This document shows positions 201 through 25,444 of a stretch of DNA of 61,265 nucleotides, piece after piece; within the stretch, counting starts at the first letter, position 1; every line of letters begins with the position of its first letter. This stretch comes from Pseudorhodobacter sp. (GTDB taxonomy: Bacteria > Pseudomonadota > Alphaproteobacteria > Rhodobacterales > Rhodobacteraceae). The DNA lies in assembly GCA_029254215.1 (NCBI GenBank), contig JAQWYA010000033.1, positions 1-61,265 of the forward strand, in the 5' to 3' direction. The position numbers were made by a program, and so were the translations under genes. The notes under the pieces are model-generated. The model was given only the letters and a program-made list of their open reading frames with translations. It was not told where the DNA came from and made no database searches.

Positions 201-210
201 TAAAGCCTCC

Positions 211-444
211 CTAAACCGACATTCCCCAAGTGGCCTGCCGTTTGACGTGAGGATCGCCTGATTGCGCCAGTTGATCAAGCGTTTTGCGCCCCGAGCGGCG
301 TCTGCGGTCGCGCCACAGGCCACCGTTGTCGCTTATTGCTGCACTGGGCAGCCAAAGCCTGAGATCGGCCTCACCGTGCCTTACAGAGGCTCTACGGACG
401 CGCTGGGCGGCATCAGGGTTCGCCCCTAGCTGATCAGCAACCAC
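211..444 (-). CDS. Possible small hypothetical ORF upstream of the zinc-ribbon gene
   Basis: A 77-codon reading frame on the minus strand starts at GTG 444 and ends 11 bases before the ATG of the zinc-ribbon gene, so its last codons would overlap that gene's ribosome site. The product is Arg-rich and I recognise no family. The GTG start has no convincing ribosome site, and the frame stays open only to about base 468. It could be a real small element gene, a decayed fragment or chance. Confidence 0.2.
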   Translation of the reverse strand: MVADQLGANPDAAQRVRRASVRHGEADLRLWLPSAAISDNGGLWRDRRRRSGRKTLDQLAQSGDPHVKRQATWGMSV

Positions 445-701
445 GACAAAGGGTGGCAGTAGCAGCCCTCAAGCTGATTGTTGTCGTGCATCCACAAAGC
501 ACCCAACTAGGGCGGTCAAGGGCGATTGGTCGGTGTCGCTCCCCTGCTAACAAAACAATCGGACCGACAAGAAATTCGATCACACATCTGTTCACACATT
601 GGCACTTTTGGTATAGATTTGCGCGAGTATAGACGTTGTGTAGCTGAGCCGACCTGTCGGCGGAGAGCCTTTTAAGCCATTGAAAATGGTGAATAAAGGT
701 G
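445..701. other. Non-coding end of the integrated element, next to the tRNA scar
   Basis: I see no convincing gene here. Short repeats cluster toward the tRNA remnant: ACACAT occurs twice near 582-597, GCCGAC-CT-GTCGGC is an inverted repeat at 648-661, and CCATT-GAA-AATGG is an inverted repeat at 677-689, directly before the point where tRNA homology begins. Recombinase-binding arms are often found beside attachment sites, so these may be integrase or excisionase sites, but that is inference. Composition is visibly more AT-rich than the DNA right of base 850. Confidence 0.35.
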
Positions 702-763
702 CAATGGTAGAGCAGCAGCTTCCCAAGCTGAATACGAGGGTTCGATTCCCTTCACCCGCTCCA
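702..763 (+). pseudogene. 3' remnant of tRNA-Gly(CCC), probable attR scar
   Basis: From base 702 the sequence matches a tRNA-Gly: D-loop (CAATGGTA), anticodon stem-loop with CCC (CTTCCCAAG), T-arm with GGTTCGATTCC, the 3' acceptor strand CACCCGC, discriminator T and encoded CCA (761-763). The 5' acceptor strand should be GCGGGTG but AATGGTG/TGAATAA is present, and the 5' D-stem is also wrong, so this copy cannot fold as a functional tRNA. Retention of only the 3' part is the usual signature of an element that integrated into a tRNA gene and rebuilt the intact tRNA at its other end. The native flank is to the right and the element to the left. Confidence 0.82.
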
Positions 764-851: not shown

Positions 852-1202
852 ATGGCAGAGATCATCCGCAACGGCGTCGGCAAACGCATGAGCGAGGCCG
901 TCATCCACAATGGTACAATCTATGTCGCCGGTCAGGTCGGCAATCCGGACGACAACGTGACCGAGCAGACCAAAACCTGTCTGGCGCATGTGGACCGCAT
1001 TCTGGCCGAGGCCGGGTCGGACAAGACGCGGATCCTGTCGACCCAGATCTGGCTGGCCGATATGGCGGATTTCGCTGCGATGAACGCGGTTTGGGATGCT
1101 TGGGTGCCGCAGGGGCATACGCCTGCGCGGGCCACGGGCGAATCTGCGCTGGCGGCCCCCGCCTACCGGGTTGAGGTCATCGTGGTCGCGGCACAGGCCT
1201 GA
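852..1202 (+). CDS. RidA family protein (Rid/YjgF/UK114)
   Basis: Members of this family hydrolyse reactive enamine/imine intermediates released by PLP enzymes in the cytosol. The product is 116 residues, the normal single-domain length. The C-terminal region keeps the arginine in TPARATGES and the strand RVEVIVVA typical of active Rid proteins. I chose ATG 852 because AAAGGAG lies just upstream; the longer track ORF (777) extends into the spacer after the tRNA scar. It is the first native gene right of the element and is followed by its own terminator. The family is clear; the exact Rid subgroup is not. Confidence 0.9.
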   Translation: MAEIIRNGVGKRMSEAVIHNGTIYVAGQVGNPDDNVTEQTKTCLAHVDRILAEAGSDKTRILSTQIWLADMADFAAMNAVWDAWVPQGHTPARATGESALAAPAYRVEVIVVAAQA

Positions 1203-1243: not shown

Positions 1244-2851
1244 TCAGGTGTTATCCGTCAGATAGGCAACAAGCTGACGGGTTGAGCCATCCTTTTGATC
1301 GGCTGGCTCGCGGCCCTCAAGGATCGGCTGCAGCGCCACGGCAAGCTCTTTGCCCAGCTCCACCCCCCATTGATCGAAGGAATTGATCCCAAGGATCACG
1401 CCTTCGACAAAGACGCGGTGTTCATAAAGCGCCACGATCTGCCCCAGCACAAAAGGCGTCAGCTGGTCAAATGCCAGTACGGTCGAGGGCCGGTTCCCCG
1501 GAAAGACGCGGTGGCGCGCCTGACGGTCCAATTCTGCGCCGGTCAGACCTTTGGCGGCCATAATCGCGCGGGCTTCCTCAAGGCTGCGGCCCCGCATCAG
1601 CGCCTCTGCCTGCGCCAAACAATTGGCGACCAAAAGCAGGTGCTGATGCGCCAGATCAGGCTCATGCCCCTTTCGCATCACCATGAATTCGCAAGGCACA
1701 ACGCGGGTGCCCTGGTGGATCAACTGATAAAAGGCATGCTGGCCGTTTGTCCCCGGCTCCCCCCAGACAACGGGGCCGGAATGGATTTCAAGCTCGGCCC
1801 CATCCATAGAGACGCGCTTGCCGTTGCTTTCCATCTCCAGCTGCTGGAGATAGGCCGGAAGACGGCTAAGCCGTTGTTCATACGGCAAAACAGCGCGGGT
1901 GGTATAGCCACAAACCTGATTGTGCCAGATCCCGATCAACGCCAGCAGGATCGGCAGGTTCTGCGCGGGCGCGGCGGTGCGGAAATGCGCATCCATATCC
2001 GCAGCCCCCGCCAGAAAATCCGCGAATCCGTCTGGCCCGATGGCAAGCATCAAGGACAGGCCGATCGGACCCCACATCGAATAGCGCCCGCCGACCCAGT
2101 CTTCAAAGCCGAACACCCGCTCCGGCGCGATCCCGAAGGCCGCTGTTTTCTCGGCCGAGGTGGACAGCGCCACGAATTGCGCCGCAGGCTCCGCCACAAC
2201 CCGGCCCATCCAGTCTTTCGCGGTCTGGGCATTGGTCATCGTCTCGATCGTCGTGAAGGTTTTGGAGGCAACGATTACCAAGGTCGTCTCGGGGTTCAGC
2301 CCACGCAGACAATCGGCAATATGCGCCCCATCGACATTCGAGACGAAATGACAGCGCGGCCCATCCGCAAAGGGCGACAGCGCGATATAGGCCATATAGG
2401 GCCCCAGATCAGAGCCGCCGATCCCGATGTTCACGACATCGGTGATCTTGCCGCCCTGCCCCTTGATGCACCCTGCGCGCAGATCCGTCGCGAAGGCCTG
2501 CATCCGGGCATAGGTTGCACGGACGTCCGGCAGAACATCGCGGCCCCCGACCGTCAGGCTGCCGTCCATGTTGCGCAAGGCGGTGTGCAAAACGGCGCGG
2601 CCTTCGGTCTCATTGATGGCAGCGCCGGAAAACATCGCCTCGCGCTTTTCCGAAACACCCGCCGCCTCCGCCAGATCCAGTAAAAGCGAAAGTCCTTCGG
2701 CATCCAGATTGGTTTTGGAGAAATCAAACAGGGCCGCGCCATGACGAACCGAGAAGTCTGCCGCGCGGCCCGCATCCCCGAAGAGGCCGAGAATAGAGCG
2801 TGACTTTACGGAGTCATAATGTTTTTCAAGGGACTGCCAGATGTTCTTCAT
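1244..2851 (-). CDS. pgi: Glucose-6-phosphate isomerase
   Basis: Interconverts glucose-6-phosphate and fructose-6-phosphate in the cytosol. Seen in the sequence: the sugar-phosphate (SIS) motif GIGGSDLGP and the family signature [18 protein letters not shown] near the C-terminus. About 535 residues, as expected. The track start at 2866 is a TTG; ATG 2851 (MKNIWQ) with GGGCGGA upstream is more likely, and ATG 2857, which overlaps the pgl stop, is possible. It is the last gene of zwf-pgl-pgi. In a bacterium using the Entner-Doudoroff route, this placement would let fructose-6-phosphate be recycled into the zwf-initiated pathway. Confidence 0.96.
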
Positions 2852-2853
2852 GT

Positions 2854-3525
2854 TCATTCCGCCCAATGTACGGTTGCTTCCTCAAGGACCACGCGCACCG
2901 GAGCCTTTGCGATGGGCAAGGTCTCGGCCTGTTCAATGGCCTGGCGCTTTGCCGCCCCGGTGATCAGGATATGGGTGCGCAATGCGCCCCGCAATACGGG
3001 TGCGCTCAGTGTGATGCGCGGCTCTCCGGCGGCATCGGCCCGCATCGGCAGCAGGATCGGGGCCTTGTCGGACAAAGCCTCCTCCAGCCGGTCGGCGCCG
3101 GGAAACAGAGAGGCCGTGTGCATATCTGCCCCCATGCCCAGCAGCAGAACCGAGATCGGAAGATGCGGGCGCAGGCCGTCAGCCAGCGCCTCCATCGCGT
3201 CTTCGGGCTGCGGCGTATCAGCGTAAAGCGGCACGATCTGCGCCGCTGCCGCCTTGCCCTGCAACAAGCGCTGTTTCAGCAGGCGCGTGTTGGAACGCGG
3301 GCTGCTTTCATCCACCCAACGTTCGTCATTCAGAAAGACCGAGACATTCGCCCAATCCAGATCGACCGCCGACAAAAGGTCAAACACTGGCCCCGGCGTG
3401 GAGCCACCCGGTACGCAAAGCGATGCCCGGCCTTCCTGGCGCAGGGTTTCGCCCAATTCACCTGCGATCTGATTGGCCAGCGCCAGCATCATCAGATCCT
3501 GATCGTTGTAAGACTTGAACTTCAT
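2854..3525 (-). CDS. pgl: 6-phosphogluconolactonase
   Basis: Hydrolyses 6-phosphogluconolactone to 6-phosphogluconate, the step after Zwf. The product is 223 residues and has the family features [12 protein letters not shown] near the N-terminus and LNDERWVD in the middle (glucosamine-6-phosphate isomerase-like fold). Its ATG overlaps the zwf stop (ATGA at 3522-3525) and its stop overlaps possible pgi starts, so the three genes are translationally coupled. Confidence 0.96.
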
Positions 3526-10981: not shown

Positions 10982-12591
10982 GTCGCGCCGTCGCGGATCA
11001 GCTTCCAGATGATCGAATCCAGCAAAGCCTCGAAGCTCGCATCCACGATATTGGCAGACACCCCGACCGTGGACCAGCGCAGCCCCTTGCTGTCTTCGCT
11101 GTCGATGATCACGCGGGTCACGGCCTCTGTCCCGCCTTGGGTGATGCGGACCTTGAAATCCACCAGCTTGAGGTCATCAATATGCGCCTGATAGGGCCCC
11201 AGATCCTTGGCCAAGGCCTTTGCCAAGGCATTGACCGGGCCGCGATCCGTGCCGGTCTCATCCATGCTTTCACTGACCGACAACATCTTCTGATCGCCGA
11301 TCTTCACAACAACAACCGCCTCAGAAAGGCTCACCATCCGGTCGCGCTTGTTCTTGCGCCGCTCCACCGTGACGCGATAGCGCTTCACCTCAAAGAACGT
11401 CGGGCACAAACCAAGAGCCCGGCGGGCCAGCAACTCAAAGCTCGCCTGCGCCCCGTCATAGGCATAGCCCTCATCCTCGCGCATCTTGATCTCGTCCAGA
11501 ATCGTTGCAAGCCGCGGGTCCTTCGCCGCCACCTCGATCCCCGCCGAGGCAAGCCGCGCCCGCAAATTCGACTGCCCCGCCTGATTGGACATCGGGATCA
11601 CCCGCGCATTGCCGACGATCTGCGGCTCGATATGCTCGTAGGTGCTGGGGTCTTTCAGGATCGCACTGGCATGAAGCCCCGCCTTATGCGCAAAGGCAGA
11701 AGCCCCGACATAGGGCGACGCCCGGTTGGGCACACGGTTCAGAATGTCATCAAGCATCCGACTGGTGCGCAATATCCCCGCCAGCGCCTCAGCGCTGACC
11801 CCCGTCTGAAAACGGCTGGCGTAAGGCTCCTTAAGCAGCAAGGTCGGGATCAGCGTGATCAAGTTGGCATTGCCGCAGCGCTCCCCCAAACCGTTCAGCG
11901 TGCCTTGCACTTGCCGCGCACCCGCATCAATGGCCGCAAGCGAGCAGGCAACCGCATTGCCCGTATCATCATGGCAATGGATCCCAAGCCGGTCGCCCGG
12001 AATACCGGCGGCAATCACCTCCGCCGTGATGCGCCCCACATCTGCGGGCAGGCTGCCCCCATTGGTGTCGCAGAGTACGATCCAGCGCGCGCCTGCCTCC
12101 AAGGCCGCGCGCAAACACGACAGCGCATAGGCCGGGTCCGCCCGGTATCCATCAAAGAAATGCTCGGCATCAAACAAGGCCTCGCGGCCCTTCTGGACGA
12201 TATGCGCGAAAGACGCCCGGATCGCCTCAAGGTTCTCCTCCAGCGTCACATTCAGTGCCGTGGTGACATGGAACGGATGGGTCTTGCCCACAAGACAAAC
12301 CGCCGGAGTGCCCGCATCCAGCACGGCCGCAAGCACATCGTCATTCTCGGCAGAGCGCCCAACCCGCTTGGTCATGCCAAAGGCCGTCATTGTGGCACGG
12401 GTGCGCGGCGCGTCGCCGAAAAACTCACTGTCGGTCGGGTTGGCCCCCGGCCACCCCCCTTCAATATGATCCACGCCCAAAGCATCCAGCGCCAGCGCAA
12501 TCTGCCGCTTCTCCACTGCCGAGAATTGAACCCCCTGCGTTTGCTGCCCATCCCGCAAGGTCGTGTCAAAAAGATAAAGCCGCTCTTTCAT
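10978..12591 (-). CDS. cimA: Citramalate synthase
   Basis: Condenses pyruvate and acetyl-CoA to (R)-citramalate, giving 2-ketobutyrate for isoleucine without threonine. The N-terminus has the DRE-TIM metallolyase signature LFDTTLRDGQQTQG, followed by EGGWPGANPTD and the HCHDDTGNAVA metal site. The C-terminal third is a LeuA-type allosteric domain, as usual at this length (537 residues). The 2-isopropylmalate synthase subfamily is the alternative, but the length and EGGWPG motif fit CimA. The start lies about 30 bp past a repeat tail. Confidence 0.92.
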   Translation of the reverse strand: MKERLYLFDTTLRDGQQTQGVQFSAVEKRQIALALDALGVDHIEGGWPGANPTDSEFFGDAPRTRATMTAFGMTKRVGRSAENDDVLAAVLDAGTPAVCLVGKTHPFHVTTALNVTLEENLEAIRASFAHIVQKGREALFDAEHFFDGYRADPAYALSCLRAALEAGARWIVLCDTNGGSLPADVGRITAEVIAAGIPGDRLGIHCHDDTGNAVACSLAAIDAGARQVQGTLNGLGERCGNANLITLIPTLLLKEPYASRFQTGVSAEALAGILRTSRMLDDILNRVPNRASPYVGASAFAHKAGLHASAILKDPSTYEHIEPQIVGNARVIPMSNQAGQSNLRARLASAGIEVAAKDPRLATILDEIKMREDEGYAYDGAQASFELLARRALGLCPTFFEVKRYRVTVERRKNKRDRMVSLSEAVVVVKIGDQKMLSVSESMDETGTDRGPVNALAKALAKDLGPYQAHIDDLKLVDFKVRITQGGTEAVTRVIIDSEDSKGLRWSTVGVSANIVDASFEALLDSIIWKLIRDGAT

Positions 12592-12621
12592 ACCAACCCC
12601 CCAAAGCCAAACCCCGCACCC

Positions 12622-12706
12622 CTCTTCTTGGAGAAATACCTTCGGGGGCGCGGGGGCAGACAGCCCCCGCTTTTCTGAGCAATCTCGTGGCGCAGACAGC
12701 CACCGC
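12622..12706. repeat. Intergenic hairpin-plus-tail repeat, copy B (class 2 tail, two hairpins)
   Basis: On the minus strand: a hairpin GTGGC/GCCAC around GCAGACA (12687-12703), a second hairpin GCGGGGG/CCCCCGC around CAGACAG (12650-12670), then a tail GGTATTTCTCCAAGAAGAGG reaching 12622. It lies between cysS and cimA, with the tail pointing at the cimA start. Confidence 0.72.
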
Positions 12707-12739
12707 TTCCCGCCCCCAACACCACATTCCGCCCCCGCC

Positions 12740-14113
12740 TCACGTCAACCGCTCCAAAGCGGCCGCGTCAAACCCCGGCCCCGGCAGCAACTCCACCCCG
12801 GCCTTGCTCATCCGAACCTCAACCCCGGCCGCCATCAGCGCCGTTTTCATCGCATCCACCGCCGCGAAATCCTTGCTCTGCATCGCGGCTTCTCGCAGCG
12901 CCTCAAGCCGTGCGGCAAACCCGCTCAGATCCACCGCAGGCCCTTCGGCCCATGCGCCCATCCCCGGCTCCAGCAGCCCCAAAAGCCGGGCGGAGGCCAA
13001 AAGCCCCGCGCCATCCCCCTGTGCCGCCGCCAGATGCAACTCCGCCAAGGCGCCCGCCGTGTTCACATCTTCACACAGCGCACCGATGACCGAGGGCAAC
13101 GGGCTTGGGGCGGGTTCGATGCCCGCCACGAGCCCTCTCCATTTGCGCAAGGTTGCTGCCGCCTGCTCCGCCTTTTCCGCCGTCCAATCCATCGTCTTGC
13201 GATAATGGGTCTGGAGGAACACAAAGCGGATCACCTCCCCCGGCACGCCCTGATCCAGCAAATTGCGAACGGTAAAGAAATTCCCAAGCGATTTTGACAT
13301 CTTGCGCCCTTCGACCAGCAGCATTTCATTATGCAGCCAGATCTGCGCAAAGCTGGCCTCCGGATTGGCGCAGCAGCTTTGGGCAAGCTCATTCTCGTGA
13401 TGCGGAAAGGCCAGATCGGTGCCGCCGCCATGAATGTCGAAACTCGGCCCCAGCAGCGCCTCGCTCATGGCAGAGCATTCGATATGCCAGCCGGGCCGTC
13501 CCCGGCCCCAGGGGCTGTCCCATCCGGGCGTCTCGGCATCCGACGGCTTCCACAGGACAAAATCCATCGGATCGCGCTTATAGGGCGCAACCTCGACCCG
13601 CGCGCCCGCGATCATGTCATCCACCGAGCGGCCCGAAAGTCGCCCATAATTCGGGTAGGAGCGGACATCAAACAACACATGACCCTCGGCGGCATAGGCG
13701 TGGCCCTTGTCGATCAGGTCTTGGGTCATCGCGATCATTTCGCCGATGTAATCGGTCGCGCGCGGCTCATGATCCGGGCGCAGATTGCCAAGCGCGTCCA
13801 TATCCGCGTGATACCAGCCGATTGTCTCATCCGTGATCTCGCGGATCGAGCGCCCGGTTTGCGCCGCCCGCGCATTGATCTTGTCATCGACATCGGTGAA
13901 ATTGCGCACATAAACAACGTGATCCGCGCCATAGACCTGCCGCAGAAGCCGCGTCAGCACGTCAAACAGGATCACATTGCGCGCATTGCCGATATGGGCC
14001 CGGTCATAGACGGTCGGTCCGCACAGATACACCCGCACGCAAGCCGCATCGAGCGGCGTGAACAGCTGCTTTGCCCGGCTCAGGGCGTTGTGCAAACGGA
14101 TCTCGGTCATCAT
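12740..14113 (-). CDS. cysS: Cysteinyl-tRNA synthetase
   Basis: Charges tRNA-Cys. Class I signatures are present: the HIGH-type site in [13 protein letters not shown] near residue 40 and KMSKSLGN near residue 270. Zinc ligands fit Cys31 in LCGPTVYD together with the later CSAMSE and HHENELAQS segments. 457 residues, full length. Two tandem ATGs (14113, 14110) follow GAAGGG, and either could be used. It is upstream of cimA on the same strand but separated by a repeat with hairpins, so co-transcription is uncertain. Confidence 0.96.
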
Positions 14114-24689: not shown

Positions 24690-25444
24690 TACGCCACCTC
24701 GGCCAGAATACCGGCGTAACCGTTCTGCTCAACTTCCAGGGCCAGCTCCGGCCCGCCGGTTTTTACGATCCGACCATCCGCCATGATATGCACGACATCC
24801 GGTTTGATATGGTCCAGAAGCCGTTGATAATGCGTGATAACCAGAAATCCCCGGCCCGCGTCGCGCAGCGCGTTCACGCCTTCGGACACCAGTTTCATCG
24901 CGTCCACGTCAAGGCCGCTGTCGGTTTCATCCAGAATGCACATCCGAGGCTCCAGCATCGCCATCTGAAGGATCTCGTTGCGCTTCTTTTCACCGCCCGA
25001 AAAGCCCACATTAACCGGACGCTTCATCATGTCAGCGTCGATCTTCAGCGCCTTCGCCTTCTCCCGCACCAGCTTGAGGAAATCGCCTGCCGAAAGCTCA
25101 TCCTCACCGCGCGCCTTGCGTTGCGCATTCAGCGCCGTGCGCAGGAAGGTCATGTTGCCCACGCCCGGAATTTCCACCGGGTATTGGAACGCAAGGAAAA
25201 GCCCCGCCGCAGCACGCTCTTCGGGCTCCATCTCCAGCAGTTCCGCGCCTTCCAGCGTGGCAGAGCCATCTGTTACCTCATAGCCCGCGCGTCCCGACAG
25301 AACATAAGACAGCGTCGATTTGCCCGACCCGTTCGGCCCCATGATCGCATGGACCTTTCCGGCCTCAACCGTCAGGTTCACACCCTTGAGGATAACCTTA
25401 TCCTCTTCTTCAAGTTTGACGTGCAGGTTTTTGATTTCCAGCAT
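24689..25444 (-). CDS. sufC: Fe-S cluster assembly ATPase SufC
   Basis: ABC-type ATPase that drives conformational change in SufBC2D. The 251-residue protein has Walker A GPNGSGKST, the SufC-type signature GFSGGEKKRNEI and Walker B CILDETDSGLD. Start ATG 25444 has GAGGAAG upstream. It sits between a methyltransferase-like gene and sufD. Confidence 0.97.
   Translation of the reverse strand: MLEIKNLHVKLEEEDKVILKGVNLTVEAGKVHAIMGPNGSGKSTLSYVLSGRAGYEVTDGSATLEGAELLEMEPEERAAAGLFLAFQYPVEIPGVGNMTFLRTALNAQRKARGEDELSAGDFLKLVREKAKALKIDADMMKRPVNVGFSGGEKKRNEILQMAMLEPRMCILDETDSGLDVDAMKLVSEGVNALRDAGRGFLVITHYQRLLDHIKPDVVHIMADGRIVKTGGPELALEVEQNGYAGILAEVA

Follow-up and report, generated by a model that had tools for sequence, protein, structure and literature searches.

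Bases 702-763 of the window, by which we mean the whole 61,265-nucleotide stretch of DNA analysed here, are very probably the displaced 3' end of a chromosomal tRNA-Gly(CCC) gene and form the right boundary (attR) of an element that integrated by tyrosine-recombinase site-specific recombination. The window is the entire contig C136 of a Pseudorhodobacter sp. draft genome (242 contigs, 3.4 Mb, 98.8% complete), and 701 bp of the element are visible in it before the contig start is reached (Table 1). The fragment, CAATGGTAGAGCAGCAGCTTCCCAAGCTGAATACGAGGGTTCGATTCCCTTCACCCGCTCCA, was compared with the intact tRNA-Gly(CCC) genes of relatives and was identical at 62 of 62 positions, an exact 62-mer running from the D-loop to the encoded CCA. 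A perfect tRNA match of 62 bases is far beyond chance. ARAGORN, run on the window, called no tRNA at this position, and Rfam RF00005 scored 30.2 bits, just above its gathering score of 29, with only model positions 9-63 of 71 covered. Directly 5' of base 702 the window has gtgaataaaggtg where the relatives have gcgggtgtagct; the 5' acceptor strand of the relatives, gcgggtg, is swapped for unrelated sequence, and because of this replacement the acceptor stem is unable to pair with CACCCGC. The first-pass annotation had described a truncated tRNA-Gly(CCC) without its 5' acceptor strand at 702-763, and both the truncation and its limits were borne out.

Table 1. Features of the element's right end and of the adjoining chromosome, in window coordinates
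Feature	Position	Strand	Evidence
Zinc-ribbon and YbjQ-family gene of the element, N-terminal 66 codons, cut by the contig start	3..200	-	phrog_15412 match, 3.2e-8
Remnant of an insertion-sequence end (ISPme1-like, IS1380 family) lying within the element	207..321	+	83% identity over 107-115 bp
Short stretch common to the right end of the EhC02 (G419) element	353..408	+	86% over 56 bp; order and strand the same as for the 520-764 match
Conserved right terminal segment of the element, adjoining the attachment site	520..701	+	88% identical to L087:14483-14727, repeat included
attR (right attachment site), consisting of the displaced tRNA-Gly(CCC) 3' fragment from D-loop to CCA	702..763	+	62/62 against intact tRNA-Gly(CCC) of relatives and the two copies at the ends of the G419 element
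ridA-like gene, the chromosomal gene nearest to attR	852..1202	+	tRNA-Gly(CCC)-ridA order in congeners
pgi (glucose-6-phosphate isomerase), chromosomal flank	1244..2866	-	ORF list; pgi past ridA in G005 and G006 too

When a tyrosine recombinase integrates an element into a tRNA gene, attP restores the gene and the old 3' end is displaced. The Islander survey recorded 3760 islands with a 3' fragment versus 159 with a 5' fragment, so that 3' fragments are the usual form (PMC4383910). Islander looks for a tRNA fragment that includes one end of the gene, here the encoded CCA, for an intact cognate tRNA that shares its replicon and orientation and is placed on the correct side, for a tyrosine integrase gene separating the two, and for an unoccupied site with an intact tRNA in related genomes. 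Such a site was found in three congeners (G001, G005 and G006), in which ridA is directly preceded by an intact tRNA-Gly(CCC); the spacing between tRNA and ridA in relatives is similar to that in the window. Alignment to these loci revealed that identity with the window begins exactly at base 702, and that the upstream DNA differs. The tRNA-Gly(CCC)-ridA locus of the congeners is the unoccupied form of the site. An empty site joining intact tRNA-Gly to ridA had been predicted from the window, with a truncated copy in all relatives named as the contrary outcome; the prediction held, with the junction at 702, and the intact tRNA of the congeners excludes that contrary outcome.

The 62-mer was then sought, with at most two mismatches, in 397 genomes of the family Rhodobacteraceae, and 70 of them contained it. 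One genome, that of Rhodobacteraceae bacterium EhC02 (G419), carries two exact copies 10,683 bp apart on a single contig (C16, LXYH01000016.1), and only the first of these is an intact tRNA. The island reads, in order, intact tRNA-Gly(CCC), tyrosine integrase, cargo, YbjQ-family gene, right end and the same tRNA fragment. The integrase (366 aa; PF00589, 1.9e-13; phrog_1, 5.7e-37) starts 57 bp past the intact tRNA, the GC content of the element is 51% against 64-67% in the flanks, and the sequence just before the second 62-mer copy agrees with window 520-701 at 88% identity. Its YbjQ gene is complete (phrog_15412, 1.2e-40; YbjQ_1, 3.3e-26) and occupies the same place as the gene at 3-200 of the window. 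The window therefore shares with this 10.7-kb island an identical 62-bp attachment block, the right terminal segment (88% over 520-764 with the repeat) and a YbjQ-family gene, matching phrog_15412 in both, at the corresponding end and in equal orientation. In contrast, the IS1380-end remnant separates the YbjQ gene from the terminus in the window copy, where the N-terminus of YbjQ has also diverged (33% identity over 69 aligned positions). Together, these comparisons show that the window and EhC02 elements are relatives, and that the window contains the end bearing the displaced fragment. The first-pass annotation had expected a direct repeat of up to about 62 bp, an intact tRNA and a tyrosine recombinase to the left; the full set is present in EhC02, whereas in the present genome the far end is out of view, the window starting at contig base 1. 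We found no paper on an EhC02-type element in the literature, and the EhC02 island is described here from its sequence only.

Two further genes of the EhC02 element were recorded. One (L087:12210-13214) encodes a protein that combines an HNH nuclease domain (Pfam HNH, 5.6e-13) with a HIT domain at its C-terminus (Pfam HIT, 1.2e-19) in a single polypeptide, a fusion that looks uncommon for a small island. The other (L087:10150-11436) encodes a 428-aa protein that matches phrog_4756, a phrog of unknown function; its motifs DIKASQP and VHDCLIVK, judged by eye, resemble those in the palms of family-A polymerases. More speculatively, the window and EhC02 elements may belong to an unnamed Rhodobacterales family of small tRNA-Gly(CCC) islands with a constant YbjQ end and exchangeable cargo, perhaps including undescribed defence or replication genes.

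The empty site in the congeners and the complete homologous element in EhC02 support the earlier proposal that the stump is the scar of an element's integration into a tRNA gene. In the proposed mechanism, the attP of the element would carry the last 62 bases of the tRNA. A crossover inside the identity block would fuse the 5' part on the chromosome with the 3' part brought in by the element. The gene would thereby be intact at the left end, and the original 3' part of the tRNA would be left behind at the right end, adjoining ridA. Since the identity block covers the tRNA from the anticodon arm as far as its 3' end, the crossover could belong to the anticodon class. Bases 1-701 are the right end of the element, made up of the YbjQ-family gene, the IS1380-end remnant and the conserved terminal segment. 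The window accordingly represents the attR side of an EhC02-family island, of which the contig start leaves 701 bp, and we infer that the left half in this genome is the same as in the EhC02 element.

The composition and content of the right end were examined as well. GC content is 53.1% over bases 1-701 and 60.9% over the window, and each of the 599 tiles of 701 bp lying to the right of the fragment has a higher value than bases 1-701. The shift in composition that had been reported at the fragment is thus real, but it is not uniform, since bases 207-450 have a chromosome-like GC content of 61.9%. The insertion-sequence remnant resembles the part of annotated ISPme1 copies that lies past the stop codon of the transposase. 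The terminal 182 bp (520-701) had no match in the phage and plasmid collections, and a 22-bp core of this segment had none in viral contigs. Among 84,980 named genomes, the core was found in EhC02 and in one Vicinamibacteria metagenome-assembled genome; the latter match was taken as chance, its surroundings bearing no resemblance. A complete relative of the YbjQ-family gene fragment, 47% identical, was observed in a prophage-like contig (L086:9974-10471), where it sits in the contig interior near a ParB/DNA-methylase gene. The gene is thus carried by phages as well as islands.

The left flank was traced through the neighbours of the intact tRNA, with gene names assigned by reading translations. 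Upstream of the intact tRNA in EhC02 is a gene for an ASKHA/ferredoxin-type protein, and the order in congener G001 is ASKHA/ferredoxin-type gene, sigma factor, anti-sigma factor, fasciclin-domain gene, VWA gene, tRNA and ridA. A 19.6-kb flank query assigned the left flank to contig C171 of the present genome, where the same cluster leaves the contig at base 1, inside the fasciclin gene; the VWA-domain neighbour of the congeners was searched for in this genome and was absent. The end of C171 probably represents the chromosomal flank on the left side and, as the cluster ends at base 1 of that contig, the gap separating C171 from the window is most likely occupied by the element.

The assembly was searched for the element body, for an intact tRNA-Gly(CCC) and for a contig overlapping the start of the window, and none of these was found, nor was a homologue of the EhC02-type integrase; that part was probably not assembled. 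The genome has five tyrosine recombinases, none of which adjoins the 702-763 site. Two of them, on C171 and C220, reach no more than 23-26% similarity to the EhC02 integrase and have an Xer-like look, that on C196 belongs to another island at tRNA-Thr, and those on C4 and C116 lie in other contexts; all were rejected as the integrase of the element. The only other EhC02-like pieces lie on contig C196, which was likewise rejected as the rest of the element because it is bounded by its own tRNA-Thr(TGT) repeat.

These absences bear on whether the element is still whole. It could have integrated and then been mostly deleted, together with its integrase and perhaps the restored tRNA, leaving the right end and the stump; this would be a later history of the same event and is compatible with the displaced-end origin of the stump. 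The lack of an intact tRNA-Gly(CCC) and of a cognate integrase in a 98.8%-complete assembly, and the scarcity of other similarity to the EhC02 element, would fit such decay, as would the insertion-sequence remnant in the right end and the presence of tRNA-Gly(TCC), which could in principle read GGG codons. However, the indispensable Cys, Gln, Tyr and Ile tRNAs are missing from the assembly too, so that the absence of tRNA-Gly(CCC), of the integrase and of the element body is no evidence of loss. In addition, the contig stops within an open gene of the element, and neither the repeat nor the terminal segment shows damage. We therefore regard extensive deletion as unlikely. It is very improbable that an element end was joined to the chromosome at a 62-bp repeat by misassembly. 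The assembly is fragmented, and a repeat of this length can be wrongly crossed, but the junction has exactly the structure that an attR should have and recurs in the EhC02 genome, which was sequenced independently; a false junction would require the other end of the element, still implying an integrated or circular element. A pseudogene origin of the fragment, through duplication or gene conversion and with no mobile element involved, is hardly credible: tRNA pseudogenes exist and the fragment taken alone would be compatible with one, but it occupies the place of the congeners' intact tRNA-Gly(CCC) directly before ridA, and to its left lies DNA matching one end of a complete island that is integrated at a tRNA gene in another genus.

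Integration into tRNA-Gly(CCC), the preferred reading, makes this a real finding of a well-known kind, an ordinary end of a tRNA-integrated island. As in the islands catalogued by Islander, the tRNA 3' fragment is displaced to one side, and the homologous EhC02 element has an intact tRNA in the same orientation with a tyrosine integrase in between; the one difference is that a single end is visible in this assembly. The boundary was correctly placed, and the case shows that island ends can be recognised in raw sequence by a tRNA stump. The finding opens no long-standing question. It adds the tRNA-Gly(CCC) upstream of ridA to the integration sites used in Rhodobacteraceae, and one complete relative, the EhC02 island, offers cargo for study. 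The same target tRNA is used by prophages: in two prophage contigs (IMG/VR contigs L077 and L085 being examples), an intact tRNA-Gly(CCC) with the same core is followed, no further than about 3 kb downstream, by a PF00589 integrase. The integrases of these prophages gave no tblastn match to the EhC02 integrase at 1e-3, so several unrelated integrases probably use the site. The two phage contigs suggest that the tRNA-Gly(CCC) gene is a recurrent integration target.

A second island of the same general kind, 13 kb long and fully assembled, was observed in the tRNA-Thr(TGT) gene on contig C196 of the present genome (G000; C196:11753-24803; loci L051, L097 and L098). It has an exact 48-bp tRNA 3' fragment at 11753-11800, an integrase at 11981-13261 and an intact tRNA-Thr near 24727-24803, and its GC content is 0.54 versus 0.62-0.63 in the flanks. 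A PtuA/PtuB-like pair (Septu-like; PADLOC PDC-M01A/B), consisting of an ATPase and an HNH protein, is encoded at C196:14116-16563, and the island has an HNH gene with 85% identity to one of the EhC02 element. The island also contains a C-terminal YbjQ remnant (C196:13856-14077) that is 92% identical to the EhC02 YbjQ over 74 residues, and pieces therefore seem to pass from one island to another even where the islands occupy different tRNA sites.
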